Part shown: positions 8,318 through 28,438 of the stretch, piece by piece
How the letters are laid out: each line of letters starts with the position of its first letter
How positions within the stretch are numbered: the stretch's first letter is position 1
Virus record (IMG/VR): IMGVR_UViG_3300043410_000352
Span: 1-43,563 of that record
DNA from: a virus
DNA length: 43,563 bases
Reading direction: 5' to 3' (one strand)
Notes under the pieces: generated by a model
Database searches by the model: none
What the model saw: only the letters and a program-made list of their open reading frames with translations
What the model was told of the DNA's origin: nothing
Made by a program: the position numbers and the translations under genes

Positions 8318-8602
8318 TCAAAAAGGCACGTCCGTATCATCATCTTGTTGAGCGGTACTGCCTTCGGGGACAAAGCGGCTAACACCGATAGACAGATAGG
8401 TCTTGCCAGCTTTGGACTGACGCTTCCATCCACTCAGCTTGATGATGGTCAGGCCATCCTTGGTGACGATGTTGGTCTTGTCGTTCATGTTGATAGCGAT
8501 CTCGCCAAAGTAGTCGGGTGACTTCTCAGACTTCTTGCTCTTGGTTGCATGCAGGTTGCCTGAGTCTGCCTTGGGCTTGTACTCGGTTTGGTAATCACTC
8601 AT
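8318..8602 (-). CDS. SSB-like single-stranded DNA-binding protein
   Basis: 94 residues. The strand-rich core (GEIAINMNDK, TIIKLSGWKR, KTYLSIGVSRF) and the acidic C-terminal tip ending DDTDVPF match the design of bacterial SSB, whose D-D-x-P-F tip recruits partner proteins. It is shorter than cellular SSB (about 170 aa) and I do not see all OB-fold strands clearly. It lies directly after the annealing protein with an ATGAGTGA overlap, a usual partner arrangement. Confidence 0.65.
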   Translation of the reverse strand: MSDYQTEYKPKADSGNLHATKSKKSEKSPDYFGEIAINMNDKTNIVTKDGLTIIKLSGWKRQSKAGKTYLSIGVSRFVPEGSTAQQDDDTDVPF

Positions 8603-9284
8603 TAGTTTTCTCCTTAAAAGATTCCTTCAGTTGCTTGAACTTGGTCAACACTTCCTCGTACATGTCTGGGTAGACGCTGTTGAGAATGTCTAGCTGACCC
8701 TGGTTTGCTTTCCAGTAGCTGTTGAGATGGGCTACTGAATCACAAATGGTTGTGTACTGGATCATGGAGTCTGCGAACAGACGCATGTCTTCCTTCTTGG
8801 GGACTTCCCCTGGTGGCACCTCCTTGCGTTTAACAATCTTTGCTTCTGGCTTTGCTTCTGGTTCCTCATCCATGGGCAAGTCTTCGTTTGCATAGATGTA
8901 CAGACCGAGTCCATGCAACGCCAAACATTTGGTCAGGCAACGCATCAATGCAGTGTTTAGATTGAAGCTGTCGATCTTCTCAACGAATGGCCCATTGCGG
9001 GTCTGGATAGTTCTGCCCTCAAGACTGATGGGCTTATTTGCGCCGTTCATCACAGGCAGGAAACAAGTCATCGGCTTGCCGAACATGGTGACAGTTACCC
9101 ACACCATGGCCGTGCCGTTGATTTCTAGATACGGCTTTTCCCCGAACATCTGCACACTGAAGTTGGCTTGCGGATCAGCCTTTAAAGCCTCTGCCCAAGC
9201 CCACGCCCATGACAGGTAGGTGAGATTGTTTTTCTTCTCAGTATGCTCGTTGACATTGATTCTGAGCAGGTCATGCGGCGACAT
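8595..9284 (-). CDS. DUF1071-type single-strand annealing protein
   Basis: 229 residues from the ATG at 9284. INVNEHTEKKNNLTYLSWAWAWAE, the LPVMNGANKPI segment and RCLTKCLALHGLGLYIYANEDLP are hallmark motifs of DUF1071 phage proteins, a recombinase group that anneals complementary strands. A longer reading starts at 9383 but would overlap the exonuclease by 113 bp; 9284 gives 14 bp, in keeping with the operon, and has AGG at 7 nt. The variable C-terminal third is charged. Works with the exonuclease and SSB-like neighbours. Confidence 0.8.
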   Translation of the reverse strand: MSPHDLLRINVNEHTEKKNNLTYLSWAWAWAEALKADPQANFSVQMFGEKPYLEINGTAMVWVTVTMFGKPMTCFLPVMNGANKPISLEGRTIQTRNGPFVEKIDSFNLNTALMRCLTKCLALHGLGLYIYANEDLPMDEEPEAKPEAKIVKRKEVPPGEVPKKEDMRLFADSMIQYTTICDSVAHLNSYWKANQGQLDILNSVYPDMYEEVLTKFKQLKESFKEKTNE

Positions 9285-10149
9285 TTGTACCTGCCTTCCA
9301 TCGCTTGAATTGATCGCAGTAATCTGCGACCCCGCAGTAATTTCCAGTACAGCGGACTGGTTCTCCTGGCCTCGTTTCGACATAGTGGTCTTTCTCCTTT
9401 GCTAGTTCAACTGCTTCTTCCATGGTTTTAAAGACTCGGACGGCAGTCTTACGTCCTTCCTTCTTCACGGCATAGGTGGTCTCTTTCATCCACCGATCCT
9501 CGTCTGTACAGGGCTGTAGATCATCCCCAAAGTCCCGGTCTACCTTGGACTGCTGGTGGGCATCCAGGCGGCTGGTGACAAATGCATTGGTCTTGGCTGA
9601 GTCCCAAACTGGGATATCCACCATGGTGATAGGGGCTTGTGGATAGTTCTCCCGGGTGTCATGGCGGCTGAAGTCCCGGATGAAGGCGCAGATCTTTAAA
9701 CCCACAACCTTCTGACCCTTCACGGTCTCAACCAGCCATTTGTAAAGGTTCAGCTGTTCGACCCATTCTTTCTTCTCCTCCTGCATGACTGCCCATGAGG
9801 AGGTGAACTTGTAGTCGATGATGGTTACACCAAAGGCCGTGACCTCTTGCAGATCGATTTGGCCGGAGATGGTGGTGTCCCCTACCTTTGCATATAAACG
9901 CTCTTCTGAGACGTACCCCGGGGTCTCGCCACGCTCCATGACCACATGCAAGGCAGAGCCAAGCATTGCCCATAGCATGTCGGAAACGTCCTGCTCCATC
10001 TGATCATGGAAACGTTCTTGCAACCTTCTAATTTGTGGTGACGAAAGCAACTCAGTCACGCTATACTGTGAAGCGCCCTTGCTGTAGTATTCCTTGGACG
10101 CTAAGGTCAACAACGGTGCGGGTACGCCGTATTTGTTTGTGATTTTCAT
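9271..10149 (-). CDS. RecB/Cas4-like PD-(D/E)XK exonuclease
   Basis: 292 residues. ISGQIDLQE supplies the first acidic residue, VTIIDYKF the D-x-K core, and QLNLYKWL the RecB-type motif IV. The C-terminal CTGNYCGVADYC may hold an iron-sulphur or zinc site. Expected role: 5'-3' resection feeding the annealing protein. I start at 10149 because AGGAGTAGAG lies directly upstream; a start 36 bp earlier has a poorer site. Its start is only 22 bp from the divergent RusA start, so no promoter fits between them. Confidence 0.8.
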   Translation of the reverse strand: MKITNKYGVPAPLLTLASKEYYSKGASQYSVTELLSSPQIRRLQERFHDQMEQDVSDMLWAMLGSALHVVMERGETPGYVSEERLYAKVGDTTISGQIDLQEVTAFGVTIIDYKFTSSWAVMQEEKKEWVEQLNLYKWLVETVKGQKVVGLKICAFIRDFSRHDTRENYPQAPITMVDIPVWDSAKTNAFVTSRLDAHQQSKVDRDFGDDLQPCTDEDRWMKETTYAVKKEGRKTAVRVFKTMEEAVELAKEKDHYVETRPGEPVRCTGNYCGVADYCDQFKRWKAGTNVAA

Positions 10150-10171
10150 CTCTACTCCTGTGAGGTCTTGA

Positions 10172-10564
10172 ATGCCTAGACGCAATGATACTGCTAGTCC
10201 AGAATCCGTGCAATCAATTTCTTTTATGATCTACGGAGAGCCAGCAAGCAAGGCAAATAGTAGGCGTGTTGTTCGCTATAACAATCTGAGCAGAGTAATA
10301 AAGTCTCAAAAAGCCTTGGACTATTCCGACCAATTTCGTCAACAATGCGTCCCGCTTGATCCGATGATGGACGGGGATTTGGTGGTGACCATCCATATCT
10401 GGTACGCATCACGCAGACCAGACCTTGATGACAGTCTGATCCTAGACCTTATGCAGGGATTGATTTACAAAAACGACAGGCAGGTGCGGGAGAGGCATCT
10501 CTACTGGCATCATGATCCAGAGAACCCACGCTCGTATATCACGGTCGAAAAAAAACCCCGGTGA
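10172..10564 (+). CDS. rusA: RusA-family Holliday junction resolvase
   Basis: 130 residues, the usual RusA size. RRPDLDDSLILDLMQG (Asp84, Asp86, Asp87) and YKNDRQVRE (Asp102) carry the conserved metal-binding aspartates; YGEPASKANSRR matches the N-terminal basic strand. It resolves four-way junctions produced by the recombination operon across the divide. GAGG precedes the ATG. Its last codons overlap the hairpin of a minus-strand terminator. Confidence 0.85.
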   Translation: MPRRNDTASPESVQSISFMIYGEPASKANSRRVVRYNNLSRVIKSQKALDYSDQFRQQCVPLDPMMDGDLVVTIHIWYASRRPDLDDSLILDLMQGLIYKNDRQVRERHLYWHHDPENPRSYITVEKKPR

Positions 10565-14366: not shown

Positions 14367-14391
14367 GGGGGGCTTGTGCCCCCCTTTTTTT
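14367..14391 (+). terminator. intrinsic terminator after primase-helicase
   Basis: GGGGGGC-TTGT-GCCCCCC, seven G-C pairs, followed by T7. It lies between the convergent primase gene and the leftward gene ending at 14390. Confidence 0.9.
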
Positions 14392-14626
14392 ATGCTGACA
14401 TACGCGCTCGGAATACTGCGGTGTGTAGCGTCTTGAATCGTCCGTACAACCTGGGAATGCGGTCTGGCGTCATCTTGTAGACCTTCCACAACCCACCCTC
14501 ATACCGCAGGAACTTCTCACCGGTGTTGATGAATCGTTCATGGTTCTGCAGGTCTATGAGGTGGTCATGGGCATACGCAGTCTTCAGGAATGTCGGGTCG
14601 GATTGGGTGATGGTCTTGATCTTCAA
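14390..14626 (-). CDS. hypothetical protein
   Basis: 78 residues. Basic, with FLRYEGGLWKVYKM in the centre and a RLYGRFKTLHTAVFRARM end, suggesting a small beta-rich nucleic-acid binder. The start overlaps the upstream stop by 4 nt. The stop lies at the edge of the terminator T-run. No family known. Confidence 0.6.
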   Translation of the reverse strand: MKIKTITQSDPTFLKTAYAHDHLIDLQNHERFINTGEKFLRYEGGLWKVYKMTPDRIPRLYGRFKTLHTAVFRARMSA

Positions 14627-14847
14627 TGGATTGCTCCCGATGGGTCAGGTTGCACCCGTGCCATGAAGTCATATAAACGCTCCATGTCATTCATCACAAC
14701 ACCGATTTCGTAGCCATTGGTGATGGCAAATTCGACCAGGATGGTTGCCATGATGGACATACAGTCGCTCAGCTCCAGGGGTGAGTCCATCACCTCTTTA
14801 ATGATTTTGTTGCTGAGTTTGATTGCTTCTTTGCTTTTGTCCATCAT
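14623..14847 (-). CDS. hypothetical helical protein
   Basis: 74 residues from the ATG at 14847, which overlaps the upstream stop as ATGA; a second ATG directly after (14844) is better spaced from GGAG. Helical, with a mildly hydrophobic ELSDCMSIMATILVEFAI segment. No family recognised. Confidence 0.6.
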   Translation of the reverse strand: MMDKSKEAIKLSNKIIKEVMDSPLELSDCMSIMATILVEFAITNGYEIGVVMNDMERLYDFMARVQPDPSGAIH

Positions 14848-14942
14848 GGTCTCCAATAGAACACGTCCAGGGCGATTACAACTGCCGCTATGAACAGTAA
14901 CACAACGTGGCGGCGTATCTCTTTGAATTCTTGATCGGTCAT
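14844..14942 (-). CDS. 32-aa single-pass membrane microprotein
   Basis: MTDQEFKEIRRH forms a charged start, then VVLLFIAAVVIALDVFYW is a membrane segment of about 18 residues. Both ends are ATGA overlaps with the neighbours. The positive N-terminal side predicts N-in topology. Possible holin-like, anti-holin or membrane-anchoring role is guesswork; the coupling makes it a real gene. Confidence 0.65.
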   Translation of the reverse strand: MTDQEFKEIRRHVVLLFIAAVVIALDVFYWRP

Positions 14943-15139
14943 TGGTTGTGCTCCCACAGAACGCGATTCCTAGCCCGGGCGCGGACAGCCTTCTTCAAGG
15001 CTTCAAGTAATAAATCCTTCTCCTGATCGGTGATCGATCCAAAGTCCAGCACCAGACTGACGCATTTAATGCACTGAGTCGTGTCGTCCTCAATCTGCTG
15101 GTACTTTTGGTCTTTGATCTGCTTTTCTCTTTCATTCAT
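14939..15139 (-). CDS. hypothetical protein
   Basis: 66 residues, start MNEREKQIKDQKYQQ, then CIKCVSLVLDFG and DLLLEALKKAVRARARNRV. Charged at both ends, one C-x2-C pair. ATGA overlaps at both sides. No family recognised. Confidence 0.6.
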   Translation of the reverse strand: MNEREKQIKDQKYQQIEDDTTQCIKCVSLVLDFGSITDQEKDLLLEALKKAVRARARNRVLWEHNQ

Positions 15140-15333
15140 TTGCTCTCTCCCAATTGATCACGCACCCAGGTCAACATCATCTGCGCGTCCATGGCGCAGG
15201 TCTTCACGTCCTCAAAAAATTCAGGCTGGTAGTCGCCTGGGTTGTCCAGGTACAGGTTGATGTCGCCATAGACTGCGCTCAGCATGCGACTGATTTTGCT
15301 CAGCGCATCATGGATATTTTTTGGTTGGTTCAT
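15136..15333 (-). CDS. hypothetical helical protein
   Basis: 65 residues starting MNQPKNIHDALSKI. Start at 15333 follows AAGGAG at 8 nt; an upstream extension lacks such a site. Helical, ends WVRDQLGES. About 70 bp downstream of the VWA gene, so it shares or follows its transcript. Confidence 0.6.
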   Translation of the reverse strand: MNQPKNIHDALSKISRMLSAVYGDINLYLDNPGDYQPEFFEDVKTCAMDAQMMLTWVRDQLGESK

Positions 15334-15370
15334 TTGCTTGCTCCTTCTTCTAACTACTGGTTTCAATCAA

Positions 15371-15404: not shown

Positions 15405-17006
15405 TCATGCGGCCAACTTGATACCCTTGAAGCTGGCGGTGCCAAGGTCTTTCGACTCCTTCACAAACACGTTGTTCGGGTAGACGGGGCCGACCTGCAA
15501 CTGGATGCCCACGCCGATGGTGGTCACACCCAGGCGTTCACCCGACTCCACTTGACGGCGGGTAGCGTCACGGGCACCCTCGCCATCGGTCAGGACAAAC
15601 AGCACCTTGCGCTCCTCTGGACGGGAATAGAGCATTTCATGGGCCACACGCACGGCGAAGTAGTCGTTCGTTGACCCTCCCTCACGCAGACGGGACACGT
15701 TGCGTTTGGCCTGGGCAATCGGCATCGACCAGGGCTTGATCACAGAAGTGTAAGAGTCGAATGCCATGACGCAGGTTGCAACACCAGCCCGGCCCAGGGT
15801 GTCCAGCAGGGCATGGCAGGTTGCCACGGCGTTCTTGGCACGGGCACCGTCACGGTTGCCGATGTCATCGAACATGGATGATGACACGTCAACCAGGATG
15901 ATCACGGCGGAGTCGATGCCATCATGCTCGAACCTGCGTTTAAACACTCGGTCTGTGGTGCCTGCGTAGGGTAGGGCGTGGACGTTGATCGATCCGGCCT
16001 TGTGGTTGCGTGTCCACTCGCAGATGTCTGTGCTCTCAAACAGTTGGCGCACCTCATGTTGCAGTTTCGCAGACACCGGGACAGGCAGGTCGAACAGGGG
16101 GTTCGCCTCATGGCGCAGGTGGTGGTCGGCCTCTGTCATACGGGCGGCACGGTCGAAACACCCGGTTCCCTTGACACCCTTGGGGGCATCGACCTGGGGC
16201 TCCACTTCCATGGGGTCACAGTTCGCACCGGGGGCGGTGGCCTGACCCACGTCTGAGCCGTTTTGACCCTGTGCCGCACCCTTACCCTTACCCGACCCCT
16301 GATCGGCGCTCTGAGAGCCATCTGATGCGTCCTGGGCACCATCCTGACCGCCAGGGTTGTCCTGGGATTGATCACCCTGGTCATCCTGCTCATCCTGGGA
16401 CAGGTTCTGCAGTTGTGCGTAGACCCACTCGGCGATTCTCAGGGTGTCGGCAGATGATTTGGCGGTGGTCAGCATGTCACCAGCCTGGGCGAAGATGGGG
16501 GCCAGCCCGTCAGCCAGGGGCACCTTGGTCTGGGCATGGTCACGCAGGTAGACTGCCAGGGCGAAGGGATACACGGCGGGGTCTGCCCAATCCTTCACGT
16601 TGACCATGGACTCCTGGACAATCTGCTCGACCAGATCGGAGAGCAGGTCACGCACGTTCCCGGTCAACTTCATGTCGATGGCGTTGTGCTCGATCCAGGC
16701 ATCCTCGACTGCGTTGTGCAGGGACTGCACGTAGGTGACGTCTGAGTTGCAGGTGAAGTCCGTCCACTTGCGGTGGCACAACTCATGGATCACAAACCCG
16801 CAGTAACGTTTAAACAGAGAGGCCGGGACGACTGCGTCATCGCGGATGTCAGCAAGGTACATCTTCCCGTACTTGCTGATGCCAGCGGTGGAGACACGGT
16901 CACTCCACTCGATGTTGATGGGGTCAAGGCCGATATATTGGCAGACCTTGTGGGCCAGAGTCTCGACACCCTTGCGCAGTTCATGTCCGAAGTATTTGTT
17001 TTTCAT
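15405..17006 (-). CDS. VWA protein with HExxH domain (CobT-like)
   Basis: 533 residues. N-terminal part: HELCH at 74-78 followed by NAVEDAW (Glu101, Asp102), a zinc-peptidase-like arrangement. Middle (about 225-300): low-complexity D/Q/G/S linker. C-terminal von Willebrand A domain: MIDAS DVSSS (Asp373, Ser375, Ser377), GGST (Thr446) and LTDGE (Asp474). Resembles CobT/BchD-type partners of MoxR AAA+ ATPases; in phages the cobalt-chelatase name is misleading because no cobalamin genes are near. The start at 17006 follows GAGGA; a longer frame lacks one. It begins 7 nt after the AAA+ gene. Confidence 0.8.
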   Translation of the reverse strand: MKNKYFGHELRKGVETLAHKVCQYIGLDPINIEWSDRVSTAGISKYGKMYLADIRDDAVVPASLFKRYCGFVIHELCHRKWTDFTCNSDVTYVQSLHNAVEDAWIEHNAIDMKLTGNVRDLLSDLVEQIVQESMVNVKDWADPAVYPFALAVYLRDHAQTKVPLADGLAPIFAQAGDMLTTAKSSADTLRIAEWVYAQLQNLSQDEQDDQGDQSQDNPGGQDGAQDASDGSQSADQGSGKGKGAAQGQNGSDVGQATAPGANCDPMEVEPQVDAPKGVKGTGCFDRAARMTEADHHLRHEANPLFDLPVPVSAKLQHEVRQLFESTDICEWTRNHKAGSINVHALPYAGTTDRVFKRRFEHDGIDSAVIILVDVSSSMFDDIGNRDGARAKNAVATCHALLDTLGRAGVATCVMAFDSYTSVIKPWSMPIAQAKRNVSRLREGGSTNDYFAVRVAHEMLYSRPEERKVLFVLTDGEGARDATRRQVESGERLGVTTIGVGIQLQVGPVYPNNVFVKESKDLGTASFKGIKLAA

Positions 17007-17013
17007 GGTGTCC

Positions 17014-18543
17014 TCAGATGTTTGCGTAGACAAATGCCGCATCGATGTATGTCGAATAGATGGCCTCAAGGGCGGTGCGGGACTCAGAGGGTTGACGGGC
17101 GACAATGCAGGACGACCATGCATCGGCGGGTTGTTTGACCTTCAGGGCGCGGATGAATGCCACAACCGAGCGGATGGACGGGGCATCGATGATCTCCCCC
17201 TCGGTCACCTTCTCACGGGCTACACGCACGGCGGTCAGAACGTGCTCTGCCAGGGGCTCACTGCAACCAGTGTGATTGACCACGGCTTTGATCTCCTCTG
17301 CCAGGGGCAGATACTGGAAGTGCAGGACACGGGCGAAACGGTCAACCAGGGCTGAGTTCATGGTGCGTGTCCCTGCGTAGCGGCCCGACTCATCACCGCA
17401 ACCGAGGGTGTTGTCAGCGGCGAAGATCATCACGCCAGGGGCACGGCGGCGCACGGCACCCCCGTAGATCACGGCGCAGTTGGGTTCCAGCAGGGGGTTG
17501 AGGGTTGCCAACTCACCCTCGGGGGCGTTGCTGATCTCATCATTCAGGATGACGGTCGAAGGGGTCATGTAAGCCTGGAGGAATGATCCAGCCTTGAACA
17601 CCGTAGCCCCATTCTCCAGGCCCACGGCACCAATGAACTCATCTGCGGATGAATGCTTGTGGTAGTTGACCCGGGCGAAGTTGCGTCCGGTACGGGCGGC
17701 AAACTGACGGGCGGTCTCGGACTTACCCGTGCCACGGTCACCCCCGAACCACAGGTTCTCGCCTGTTTCCTGGACACCGAGCAGGTCTTCTAGGATGGGG
17801 CGCGTCCAGATGAACATGGGGTCAACGGCAGGGGCGGCGGGGTGGTTCCAGATGTCAACCATCAGGGGATTGCCACGCACGTCAGTCACGTCAATACCGA
17901 ACACGTCCAGGGCGGTCTTGCGCTCGATCACCCGGATGGCAGACAGGTCAGCGACAACCTCTTGCAGACCCGCATCTTCCACGGCCTTGCGGAAGGGGGC
18001 AAAGGCGTTGTCCACAACCTGGGCCACGGCGGTGTTGATCTGGGCCTCATCCAGGACGAACTTGCCCATCTTCTGGTTCAGCGCCTTGACCTCCATCTCC
18101 ATCGACACAACCCCGGATTGCAGTTTGTTCAGGCCGGAGTGCGTCTTGTCCAGGTTGCCGATGATTGAATCGATGCGCTGACCGAGTGCTTGTTTGTCCC
18201 TCTCAAACAATTTTTGCGTGTCGGTGATGCGCCCGTTGACCATCTGCTCAAGGTTGTGCAGGTTTATGCCCAGGTCAGCGATAGCCCTGGACTCAGGGGT
18301 GCGTCCGGTGGGGAGGGCGGCAGGGTGGGAGACAGGCCCGGGCACAGTGGCGTGGGTGGCAACATCATAGACACGGGTCAGGTTGAACTGCCCATCCATG
18401 ATCTGGGTTTTGAGCCAATTGATGGCATCGGCCTTGGTGACCCGGGTGTTGTCCCCGGACAGGACGTTGTATGCCCCGATGACCTTTGCCATGGGCATGG
18501 CAAGCAGGGCATTGTTCACTTCTTTAATGTTCAGGTTGCTCAT
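17014..18543 (-). CDS. MoxR/CobS-like AAA+ ATPase
   Basis: 509 residues. Helical, coiled-coil-rich N-terminus (about 80-190), then AAA+: Walker A GGDRGTGKS (about 267-275), Walker B STVILNDE (about 329-336), sensor FAADNT, arginine finger ALVDRFA (about 398). Expected to form a hexamer that hydrolyses ATP and remodels targets with the VWA partner. ATG at 18543 has GAGGAG at 8 nt; the GTG at 18552 overlaps that site and is rejected. It starts 5 nt after the SprT-like gene. Confidence 0.85.
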   Translation of the reverse strand: MSNLNIKEVNNALLAMPMAKVIGAYNVLSGDNTRVTKADAINWLKTQIMDGQFNLTRVYDVATHATVPGPVSHPAALPTGRTPESRAIADLGINLHNLEQMVNGRITDTQKLFERDKQALGQRIDSIIGNLDKTHSGLNKLQSGVVSMEMEVKALNQKMGKFVLDEAQINTAVAQVVDNAFAPFRKAVEDAGLQEVVADLSAIRVIERKTALDVFGIDVTDVRGNPLMVDIWNHPAAPAVDPMFIWTRPILEDLLGVQETGENLWFGGDRGTGKSETARQFAARTGRNFARVNYHKHSSADEFIGAVGLENGATVFKAGSFLQAYMTPSTVILNDEISNAPEGELATLNPLLEPNCAVIYGGAVRRRAPGVMIFAADNTLGCGDESGRYAGTRTMNSALVDRFARVLHFQYLPLAEEIKAVVNHTGCSEPLAEHVLTAVRVAREKVTEGEIIDAPSIRSVVAFIRALKVKQPADAWSSCIVARQPSESRTALEAIYSTYIDAAFVYANI

Positions 18544-18548
18544 GTTGT

Positions 18549-19133
18549 TCACTCCTCAGTTGCTACAAAAAACGTGTCGCCGTCCAGGCCGCAGGTCGGC
18601 AGACCCTGCGATGCCCATTTCTGGGTCAGACGGATGGTGTATCCGCAGGTGGGGCATACGGCCTTCAGCATCCGGGTTGCCTGTTTGGGACGGGCACCCA
18701 GACCGAGGGACGCATGGGGATAGACACCCAGGGATTCGATGATGGCCCCGAAAGATGCATCGAAGGTGGCACCCGGGACGGTAGATCGGAAGTTATCGCC
18801 AGACGCAGGGGCAAGGTGCATCTTGCGAGCCCAGGTCTTGAAGACTGCGCCGTGATTGAATGCCCCGGCGGTGGTATGAATCAACTCATGGGTGAGCACG
18901 GCAAACACGTCACGGGGTGAGTCAACCTTGGGGTGAATGCTGATCTCCCAGGTGTTGTCAGCGGAGCGGTCAGCAGACACGCACTCGCCGACCACGTTAC
19001 CCCGGTTGCCACCAGAGGGGAAGCCGCAGGTCACTCGGATGCGTTGGGGCAGGGAGCCGTTGAACCAGGGGGTCAGTTCGACCACGGCGGCATTGAGCCA
19101 CTCCTCCCTGGTTGAATAGATTGCTTGTGTCAT
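18549..19133 (-). CDS. SprT-like zinc metalloprotease
   Basis: 194 residues. THELIHTTAGAFNHG gives HExxH (His82, Glu83, His86) and a third ligand (His94) as in SprT/Spartan proteases. A C-terminal ribbon CPTCGY ... CGLDG (from Cys160) probably binds a second zinc. Spartan family members cut DNA-bound proteins; target here unknown. First gene of the three-gene operon; CGGAGTAGCAAC precedes the ATG. Confidence 0.8.
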   Translation of the reverse strand: MTQAIYSTREEWLNAAVVELTPWFNGSLPQRIRVTCGFPSGGNRGNVVGECVSADRSADNTWEISIHPKVDSPRDVFAVLTHELIHTTAGAFNHGAVFKTWARKMHLAPASGDNFRSTVPGATFDASFGAIIESLGVYPHASLGLGARPKQATRMLKAVCPTCGYTIRLTQKWASQGLPTCGLDGDTFFVATEE

Positions 19134-19685
19134 GTTGCTACTCCGGTTTGTTGAGGTTGTAACGCCTTGCTAGTTGCGTTGGAATGAATTGTACTATCAA
19201 TTTAAACAGCTAGTATCATAGGGACAAACCCTAGGAGAATAAAGTACTCATATCCATGTCTTCTGGGAGGCTGACTGCAACATATAGATAAGGCTTCAGC
19301 GTTGTGGGTCTGCAAGTTATCCACAGAGTTATTCAATTCCGGGGTGTGGATAAGTCTCTGACCAGTGTGGATAACTATGTAACACTCAAGTAGTACAGAC
19401 CGGCATGGGAGGCGTTTAAACGAATGGGGTGATACCTCGGCCTGGGTGGGGGTGAAAAAAACGGCTGTAAACGGGGTGTGCAATGCGAAAGTATTACATC
19501 GATATCCACAGGTTATGCACTGAGTGTGGACAACTTTGGGTTATCAACAGGGTTCTGTGGATAGTGTGGATAACTTGCGTGGAGGGTTCAGATGTGGTCA
19601 AATCCATGCGAACAGTCCCGGGGATGGCATGTAGGTGTTGCCCTGGGGTGAGTGTGCGTGTAAACGATAGGGATTGGGGGTCAGT
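19134..19685. other. strand-switch region with DnaA-box cluster, probable replication origin
   Basis: No gene. Perfect DnaA boxes: TTATCCACA at 19317-19325 and TGTGGATAA (reverse) at 19345-19353, 19366-19374 and 19565-19573. One-mismatch forms: 19502-19510, 19525-19533, 19541-19549 and 19556-19564. A GTTTAAAC palindrome lies at 19414-19421 and ATTTAAAC at 19200. Divergent operons start on either side, so promoters must also be here. DnaA dependence is inferred from box density; no AT-rich unwinding element is obvious. Confidence 0.75.
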
Positions 19686-20512: not shown

Positions 20513-20695
20513 ATGTCCATGGATGATTTAAACGACTATGCATATCCGACGATGATGGCGGAGACTGCTTTAAAGGAGCTGCACAAGGCCATGCTTGAGG
20601 GCAAGTATGAGAAGGCTTTGGAGCATGGTTTAAATGCGAGGATCTGGACGTCCCGGATCATTGAGACTGTCAGGATGAAGTTAGGGAATGACTGA
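20513..20695 (+). CDS. small helical hypothetical protein
   Basis: 60 residues, MSMDDLNDYAYPTMM then a helical ALKELHKAMLEGKYEKALEH segment. A second ATG lies at 20519. No clear ribosome-binding site is seen upstream. Overlaps the LexA-like gene by 8 bp. No family known; codons favour GAG and AAG as in the next gene. Confidence 0.6.
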   Translation: MSMDDLNDYAYPTMMAETALKELHKAMLEGKYEKALEHGLNARIWTSRIIETVRMKLGND

Positions 20696-20918
20696 GCGGG
20701 AGCGAGCCATCTTGGAGTTTATAAAGGCGTACATGAGGCTTCATGGGGTCTCGCCTAGCTATGAGGTGATTGCTTCTGGGATTGGTTTGAGGTCTAAGTC
20801 GAACATCCACAGGTTGGTTCATAAGCTGGAGCAGATGGGGCATTTGAAGTTGAAGCCGTACAAGTTCCGGTCTATTAAGTTGATTGATCGCAGTGTTATG
20901 GAGGTGTCAGCTCTATGA
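20688..20918 (+). CDS. LexA-type winged-helix DNA-binding domain alone
   Basis: 76 residues. MTERERAILEFIKAYMRLHG, then PSYEVIASGIGLRSKSNIHR and LVHKLEQMGHLKL match the LexA N-terminal domain helix by helix. The Ser-Lys protease half is absent, so it cannot self-cleave after DNA damage. Located between terminase subunits and coupled to TerL by ATGA. Likely regulator of late or host SOS-type promoters. Confidence 0.75.
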   Translation: MTERERAILEFIKAYMRLHGVSPSYEVIASGIGLRSKSNIHRLVHKLEQMGHLKLKPYKFRSIKLIDRSVMEVSAL

Positions 20919-27526: not shown

Positions 27527-28438
27527 ATGGCTATTTCCCGCGCACAACTACTCAAGGAACTGCTCCCTGGTTTGAACGCTCTGTTCGGCCTTGAGTACGC
27601 CAAATATGGCGAAGAGCACAAAGAGATCTACGAAACCGAGTCTTCGGAGCGTAGTTTTGAAGAAGAAACCAAGCTGTCTGGCTTCTCCGCCGCTCCGGTG
27701 AAGAACGAAGGCTCTGCCATTGCTTATGACAATGCGCAGGAGGCTTGGACTGCACGCTATACGCACGAAACCATCGCCATGGGTTTCTCGGTGACCGAAG
27801 AGGCCGTCGAGGACAACCTGTACGACAGCCTGTCTGCTCGTTACACCAAGGCTCTGGCCCGTGCTATGGCTTACACCAAGCAGGTTAAGGCCGCAAACGT
27901 GCTGAACAATGCGTTCAACACCTCTGTGACCTACGGTGACGGCGTTTCCCTGTGTAACACCGCCCACCCCCTGATCTCCGGTGGCACCAACAGCAACCGC
28001 CCGACGACCGGCGCTGACCTGAACGAAACTTCGTTGGAAAACGCAGTTATTCAGATCGCCGCTTGGACGGACGAACGTGGTCTGCTGATCGCTGCTAAGC
28101 CCAAGAAGCTGATCGTTCCTCCGAGCCTGATGTTCGTGGCTACCCGCCTGCTTGAAACCGAGCTGCGCGTTGGTACGACCGACAACGACATCAACGCCCT
28201 GAAGAACAACGGTTCTATTCCCGAGGGATATACCGTTAACCACTTCTTGACGGACACCAACGGCTGGTTCCTGACCACCGACGTGCCCAACGGCCTGAAG
28301 CACTTTGTCCGTATGCCGATGTCCACCAGCATGGATGGTGACTTCGACACCGGCAACGTCCGCTACAAGGCCCGTGAGCGTTATTCGTTCGGCGTGTCTG
28401 ATCCGCTGGGGATTTTCGGATCTCCCGGTTCGTCCTGA
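27527..28438 (+). CDS. major capsid protein (HK97 fold expected)
   Basis: 303 residues. EIYETESSERSFEEETKLSG is the N-arm/E-loop region, WTARYTHETIAMGFSVTEEA and a long helix ALARAMAYTKQVKAANVLNN the spine, and the C-terminal part the A-domain strands. Resembles Mu gpT-type major head proteins. AAGGAG precedes the ATG; strong codon preference for C-ending codons, as expected of the most expressed gene; followed by a terminator. Confidence 0.85.
   Translation: MAISRAQLLKELLPGLNALFGLEYAKYGEEHKEIYETESSERSFEEETKLSGFSAAPVKNEGSAIAYDNAQEAWTARYTHETIAMGFSVTEEAVEDNLYDSLSARYTKALARAMAYTKQVKAANVLNNAFNTSVTYGDGVSLCNTAHPLISGGTNSNRPTTGADLNETSLENAVIQIAAWTDERGLLIAAKPKKLIVPPSLMFVATRLLETELRVGTTDNDINALKNNGSIPEGYTVNHFLTDTNGWFLTTDVPNGLKHFVRMPMSTSMDGDFDTGNVRYKARERYSFGVSDPLGIFGSPGSS

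Follow-up and report, generated by a model that had tools for sequence, protein, structure and literature searches.

The operon and its phage lineage

The DNA analysed here (the window) is the whole of IMGVR_UViG_3300043410_000352, an IMG/VR virus contig of 43.6 kb (43,563 nucleotides) that belongs to a lineage of uncultured lake and sea phages. Its minus strand carries an operon coding, in this order, for a SprT-like protein, a MoxR-type AAA+ ATPase and a protein in which a zincin-like domain precedes a VWA domain. Terminase, portal and head genes are found on the plus strand, and a cluster of DnaA boxes lies between the gene of the small terminase subunit (TerS) and the operon (Table 1). This trio is core in the lineage, is linked to a putative replication origin and accompanies genomes in which no phage DNA polymerase was recognized.

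Table 1. Features of the operon and of the adjoining intergenic region, with positions in the window
Feature	Position	Strand	Basis or remark
SprT-like protein, 194 aa, phrog_6361	18549..19133	minus	Pfam, PHROG, motif
SprT HELIH motif	18876..18890	minus	intact in window, degenerate in many relatives
MoxR/CobS-type AAA+ ATPase, 512 aa, N-terminal extension of ~230 aa	17014..18552 (likely ATG 18543)	minus	AAA_5, profile matches
Walker A GDRGTGKS	17719..17742	minus	kept in nearly all relatives
Walker B D338-E339	17536-17541	minus	kept in nearly all relatives
VWA protein, 533 aa	15405..17006	minus	VWA_2, AlphaFold models
VWA-protein HELCH zinc-binding motif, H74 E75 H78	16773..16787	minus	alignment
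NAVEDAWIE motif, N98 E101 D102 E106	16689..16715	minus	invariant in alignment of relatives
MIDAS DVSSS, D373 S375 S377	15876..15890	minus	DxSxS in every aligned relative
DnaA-box cluster, predicted host-DnaA-dependent origin	19317..19573		between TerS and operon

The stop codon of the SprT gene overlaps a GTG start of moxR by 4 nt (18549-18552); the likelier MoxR start is ATG 18543, which has GAGGAG ahead of it. The longest open reading frame (ORF) of the VWA gene opens at 17123 inside moxR; its true start is almost certainly ATG 17006, 7 nt past the MoxR stop, since the alignments of relatives begin there. Sigma-70 promoters were not detected ahead of the operon by consensus. A DNA search revealed no close relatives among cultured phages, and in bacterial genomes relatives were found on one contig only, from a metagenome-assembled genome of Burkholderiales (L129).

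Conservation of the trio

Independent scans with each of the three proteins yielded 115 loci, a count that includes near-duplicates (57 complete loci are found among 95% SprT clusters). All three genes occur in 88 of these loci, contiguous, on one strand and invariably in the order SprT-MoxR-VWA (88/88), which is far beyond chance; nearly all remaining loci are cut at a contig end, the exception (L036) being one that cannot be judged. Because scans with protein baits favour carriers of the module, the terminase was used as separate bait. Where terminase-selected loci extend 5.5 kb or more towards the module, the complete trio was found in 17/17, and where they extend 3.5 kb, SprT together with MoxR in 27/27. 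Among the MoxR-selected loci 70 are complete and one is cut.

A first-pass annotation, made from the sequence alone, had described these three genes as one operon and proposed a profile search for their co-occurrence, with separate occurrence in relatives as the counter-argument. Within the lineage the set is fixed. Among distant relatives the genes do occur separately: in the stretches examined SprT stands alone in ten loci of cultured phages, and MoxR-VWA pairs lacking SprT are present in one Microcystis phage and two Zobellviridae. The solitary SprT genes sit within blocks of SSB and exonuclease genes.

This distribution also bears on a possible function as counter-defence protease destroying host defence complexes, a role that proteolytic machines may serve. 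The module is core and syntenic throughout the lineage and not patchy, and PADLOC gave no convincing match. We therefore consider such a function quite unlikely, and defence complexes, named earlier among the possible targets, are disfavoured.

SprT-like subunit

The assignment to the SprT-like family follows from the Pfam matches of relatives, from phrog_6361 and from the motif. The window protein itself reaches 2.3e-4 and 21.4 bits with Pfam SprT-like, which is under the gathering cut-off of 25.6, whilst 17/24 relatives match (best 2.7e-6), and its match with phrog_6361 has 2.9e-35. It contains HELIH with a third histidine (His94) and a C-terminal zinc ribbon (C160, C163 and C181). A sequence search of the PDB with the SprT profile gave no meaningful match.

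The catalytic motif has a peculiar history. HExxH is found in 167 of 220 SprT sequences and is absent in the other 53, which show ten different broken forms (AQxxR, AMxxH, SQxxR, HGxxA, AQxxC, TQxxV and others). Among representatives it is broken in 20/77, and a tree built without the motif columns needs five changes, at least three of which are forced by well-supported branches. The alignments are unambiguous at the motif and the broken proteins carry no alternative HExxH. Where the sets were assembled with baits other than SprT, the motif is intact in only 61/101 SprT sequences. Despite this decay of the active site the zinc ribbon and an LGxYPH segment are retained. Thus, the SprT-like subunit is probably a targeting adaptor or binding subunit in the first place rather than an enzyme, and the natural series of dead-SprT variants could separate the adaptor role from the enzyme role.

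Repair of DNA-protein crosslinks would require the reverse, namely that a Spartan-like SprT is the enzyme and MoxR-VWA merely supplies its substrates. The assignment to the SprT-like family, the intact HExxH in the window and most relatives and the vicinity of solitary SprT genes to SSB and exonuclease genes are in line with this function. We nevertheless hold it to be rather improbable, because the SprT catalytic site was lost repeatedly with the operon retained, whereas the corresponding site of the VWA protein was never lost.

SprT-like relatives with about 40% identity are also common on sphingomonad plasmids (Sphingobium, Sphingomonas), sometimes with two or three per record.

VWA protein and its zincin-like domain

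The VWA protein consists of a zincin-like domain (residues 1-205), a low-complexity linker (about 206-250) and a VWA domain with metal ion-dependent adhesion site (MIDAS; about 295-533). Its VWA_2 match in Pfam has 2e-9, the profile of this half finds VWA chains, CobT and NorD among them, and the predicted fold resembles the MIDAS domain of Rea1 (Z 20.8) and NorD (Z 17.6). For the N-terminal 205 residues alone AlphaFold (52 relatives) returned a model with a predicted local distance difference test score (pLDDT) of 96.7 and a predicted template modelling score (pTM) of 0.91. Selecase heads the Foldseek hits of this model, with a probability of 0.99 though an E of 0.05. The matches listed by VIA-align are very largely zinc peptidases, i.e. 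M1 aminopeptidases, selecase, BepA, BlaR1, SPRTN, Wss1 and ArdC. A PDB sequence search with the profile of the N-domain gave no meaningful match.

The model has a second helix (residues 91-111) packed after the one with HExxH (H74, E75, H78); it presents N98, E101, D102 and E106. These four residues are candidates for the third zinc ligand and the second shell of a gluzincin-like site; one of the glutamates would bind zinc. Among the sequences that cover the site neither the H-E-H nor the N-E-D-E set was ever lost, and plasmid relatives (IncC, Rhodanobacter, Marinobacter) keep the HExxH of the VWA protein as well. Both HExxH centres recognized at first (HELIH and HELCH) are present in the window but do not deserve equal weight: the concern that such motifs might not be conserved proved justified for SprT and unfounded for the VWA protein, and judged by sequence only the VWA-protein zinc centre appears to be under constant selection. 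The opposite fates of the two sites suggest SprT as the binding subunit and the VWA-protein site as the enzyme.

In one set of relatives two ORFs encode the parts before and after the linker, which implies that these halves of the VWA protein can work as separate chains. HHTV-2 cobT was likewise reported as split (PMC8651126).

MoxR ATPase and the relationship to cobaltochelatase

The window ATPase matches AAA_5 (1.7e-13) and, under the cut-off of that model, bpMoxR (9e-5), and its profile matches the AAA+ modules of midasin (3e-57) and CobS (7e-35). The ATPase has intact Walker A and B, sensor Asn and DRF arginine, and the adjoining VWA gene product an intact DxSxS, so that the AAA+ motor and the VWA adaptor with intact MIDAS are present as first described. 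DUF3150 was considered as a counterpart of the N-terminal extension of MoxR and rejected since no profile match was found.

For archaeal viruses it was argued that viral CobST joins host CobN and thereby raises vitamin B12 output (PMC8651126). The relationship as such is real, since MoxR is truly homologous to CobS and the VWA half to CobT. The N-terminal domains of phage protein and CobT are apparently homologous too, as indicated by motif-level alignment, by Pfam CobT matches (weak, in 8/52 N-domains) and by the common domain order, while hhalign of the N-domain with Sinorhizobium meliloti CobT gave E 0.004 with a probability of only 8%. In contrast, the window proteins score 56.5 against an equivalog cut-off of 558.6 (CobS) and 20.5 against 759 (CobT), and S. 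meliloti CobT as control reaches 1166. No match with CobN (PF02514) was found in the 43.6-kb and possibly incomplete record, a search that covers the phage record only. At the site where phage and plasmid proteins have an invariant HExxH, true CobT has RKACH (and, in S. meliloti, EQ for ED), and the SprT partner is left without explanation. A role in cobalamin synthesis is therefore very improbable, the operon has probably been mislabelled as a vitamin B12 enzyme, and the view of PMC8651126 lacks support for this lineage. The CobS/CobT label had rightly been called into question. The peptidase motif, which the true CobT examined has in broken form, is invariant in the phage proteins, and this speaks for a peptidase.

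DnaA boxes and loss of the phage polymerase

All perfect DnaA boxes of the record fall in the intergenic region between TerS and the operon (19317-19573). Four copies of TTATCCACA start at 19317, 19345, 19366 and 19565, and boxes with one mismatch are found at 19502, 19525, 19541 and 19556. Across 74 representatives 173/175 perfect boxes are located in the 203 kb surveyed upstream of SprT, at a distance of up to 3 kb, as compared with one in 329 kb downstream. The 1.2-kb upstream regions contain 71 boxes, whereas permuted 9-mers occur there 0.5 times on average and at most 5 times. Boxes were also present in 20/20 loci of the terminase-selected set, with 62/63 at the same place, and the large terminase subunit (TerL), TerS, boxes, module and primase form a syntenic block. 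From its sequence this cluster at one place looks like a host-DnaA-dependent replication origin. An upstream box is missing in 9/74 representatives, mainly from the clade with split VWA protein, in which alternative variants of the DnaA box were searched for and none was found. Instead, 9-mers that recur, for example TGCTTGCAT or CGTTCGTGC, are seen in the upstream regions of this clade.

In 15/15 lineage records with module and boxes (fourteen of them with 55-64 kb) no match with PolA, PolB or PolC was detected, and seven records of the box-less clade likewise lack PolA. By terminase the nearest cultured phages are HTVC027P, 023Pt_psg01, DSL-LC04 and MinM2. The terminase, portal and neighbouring head genes of these four sister phages are homologous to those of the lineage, with identities of 47-57% (TerL), 41-44% (portal) and, in one, 67% for the capsid protein: the major capsid protein of the window (27527-28438) is 67% identical to that of DSL-LC04. 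None of the four has a SprT, MoxR or VWA N-domain of the lineage type or a perfect box, and three of them encode PolA. Since the sisters share head genes in the absence of module and boxes, the module accompanies the replication strategy and not the virion. In DSL-LC04, where the capsid gene is alike and the replication genes are different, this represents a modular swap of replication genes. Between related phages module and DnaA boxes thus come and go together with the loss of the phage polymerase, which makes the proposed role testable.

The same comparison concerns virion assembly or maturation, in which the MoxR-VWA-peptidase would remodel and process structural proteins as proposed for jumbo phages (PMC7824862). 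The proposal covers the same pair of MoxR and metallopeptidase-vWA, and a MoxR-vWA system is described there as one that an archaeal virus needs to assemble its tail. For the present lineage such a function seems unlikely, given sister phages that have homologous TerL, portal and, in one, capsid genes without any of the three genes, conjugative plasmids that make no virion and carry HExxH-VWA with AAA+, and an operon transcribed away from the structural genes. The evidence favours a role in host-dependent replication, and capsid proteins, previously listed as potential targets, are disfavoured.

Proposed function

We suggest, with a probability of roughly 45%, that the trio acts during the start of phage replication by host DnaA and the host replisome or shortly afterwards, when it would clear, cut or remodel DNA-bound proteins of the host or the phage and so let the host machinery copy the phage genome. 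The early idea of a protein-remodelling or proteolytic machine is supported by sequence and predicted structure as far as AAA+ motor, VWA adaptor and zincin-like domain are concerned, and among the targets put forward DNA-bound proteins stay the best candidates. Such targets in initiation or recombination are favoured by the location of the operon, the missing polymerase, the SSB and exonuclease neighbours and the plasmid context.

The three proteins presumably form a physical complex, whose engine would be MoxR together with the VWA metallopeptidase, a peptidase judging by its motif and model. The SprT-like subunit may bring this machine to proteins on DNA, and the MIDAS of the VWA domain most probably captures, much like that of Rea1 or NorD, an acidic target residue. 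While the MoxR ring would rotate or pull the VWA moiety, the HExxH domain tethered to it could cut or clip the remodelled protein. In the cryo-EM structure of NorQD a finger of the VWA domain is located in the MoxR pore, the MIDAS binds the target and, as ATP is turned over, the VWA partner becomes twisted relative to its N-terminal domain (PMC13036017). If MIDAS or SprT holds the target, a similar twist against the zincin domain could have the target both remodelled and cut. A more specific version, in which an ATP-driven three-part protease hijacks or licenses host DnaA or replisome at the phage origin for phages lacking a polymerase, with SprT as non-catalytic DNA-targeting adaptor and catalysis in a VWA-tethered gluzincin-like domain, is less likely than not. 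If it were true, viral "CobT" in general would be a peptidase and not a chelatase subunit.

Several points weigh against a function at the origin. The split-VWA clade (L024-L027, L030, L031, L033) keeps the trio without a recognisable DnaA box, so module and box are separable, and synteny alone could hold the operon beside the origin. The intergenic region reaches an AT content of at most 0.62 per 40 nt and has no clear AT-rich unwinding element. The contrast with the sister phages may go back to a single evolutionary event, MoxR-VWA pairs occur also in phages that encode a DNA polymerase, and the structural matches of the N-domain with zincins are middling (Z 5-7).

Neighbouring genes

Four small genes without assigned function follow downstream of the VWA gene (14390-15366), and the one at 14390-14626 adjoins the module in 22/74 representatives too. 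Directly before the gene of the large terminase subunit lies a small gene (20688-20918) that codes for a LexA DNA-binding domain without the peptidase part and is kept in 57/74 representatives. Elsewhere in the record genes of a Sak annealing protein, a PD-(D/E)XK exonuclease, RusA and primase/helicase are found. The first two overlap (8595-10185), the exonuclease having a DUF2188-like stretch.

Comparison with known systems

The nearest published counterpart is found in group 2.2 jumbo phages (Iyer et al. 2021, PMC7824862), where MoxR likewise adjoins a VWA protein with N-terminal metallopeptidase domain and SprT-like peptidases are present too. The excerpts of this report propose the assembly role mentioned above and describe no SprT-MoxR-VWA operon. 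The lineage presented here differs in its third subunit, the origin-linked place and the frequent pseudo-SprT. IncC and other conjugative plasmids also encode HExxH-VWA and a MoxR/CobS-like AAA+ protein (hmm 1.8e-47). They have a DUF3150 gene in place of SprT, and their AAA+ protein lacks the long N-terminal extension. Such sets of AAA, DUF3150 and HExxH-VWA genes occur in the plasmid loci L131 (1277-8743), L132 and L133, the loci of IncC and Marinobacter plasmids adjoin Bet/RecT and lambda-type exonuclease genes, and the VWA protein has matches in more than 1,700 plasmid records.

SprT-like proteins of cultured phages (Arthrobacter, Microbacterium, Burkholderia and E. coli phages) belong to the same family, phrog_6361, and possess HExxH, but are encoded in SSB, exonuclease and polymerase blocks without MoxR-VWA in the stretches examined. 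NorQ/NorD and Rea1/midasin share the MoxR-clade ring and the VWA/MIDAS partner; they remodel NOR or pre-60S particles and to our knowledge have no zincin domain, whereas in the phage lineage a peptidase is attached. In the VMAP or MoxR-vWA ternary conflict systems (Kaur et al. 2020) the third component is VMAP, iSTAND or related and the effectors are variable, while here it is SprT-like and no variable effector domains were seen. A literature search found no description joining SprT-like and CobS in phages or DnaA box and MoxR. The pair of MoxR and VWA-peptidase is thus already known from jumbo phages, whereas the trio, its link with the origin and the pseudo-SprT subunit seem not to have been described before. 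We regard the operon as a core, origin-linked variant of the phage MoxR and vWA-metallopeptidase pair, with a well supported architecture and a function that is a reasoned proposal.

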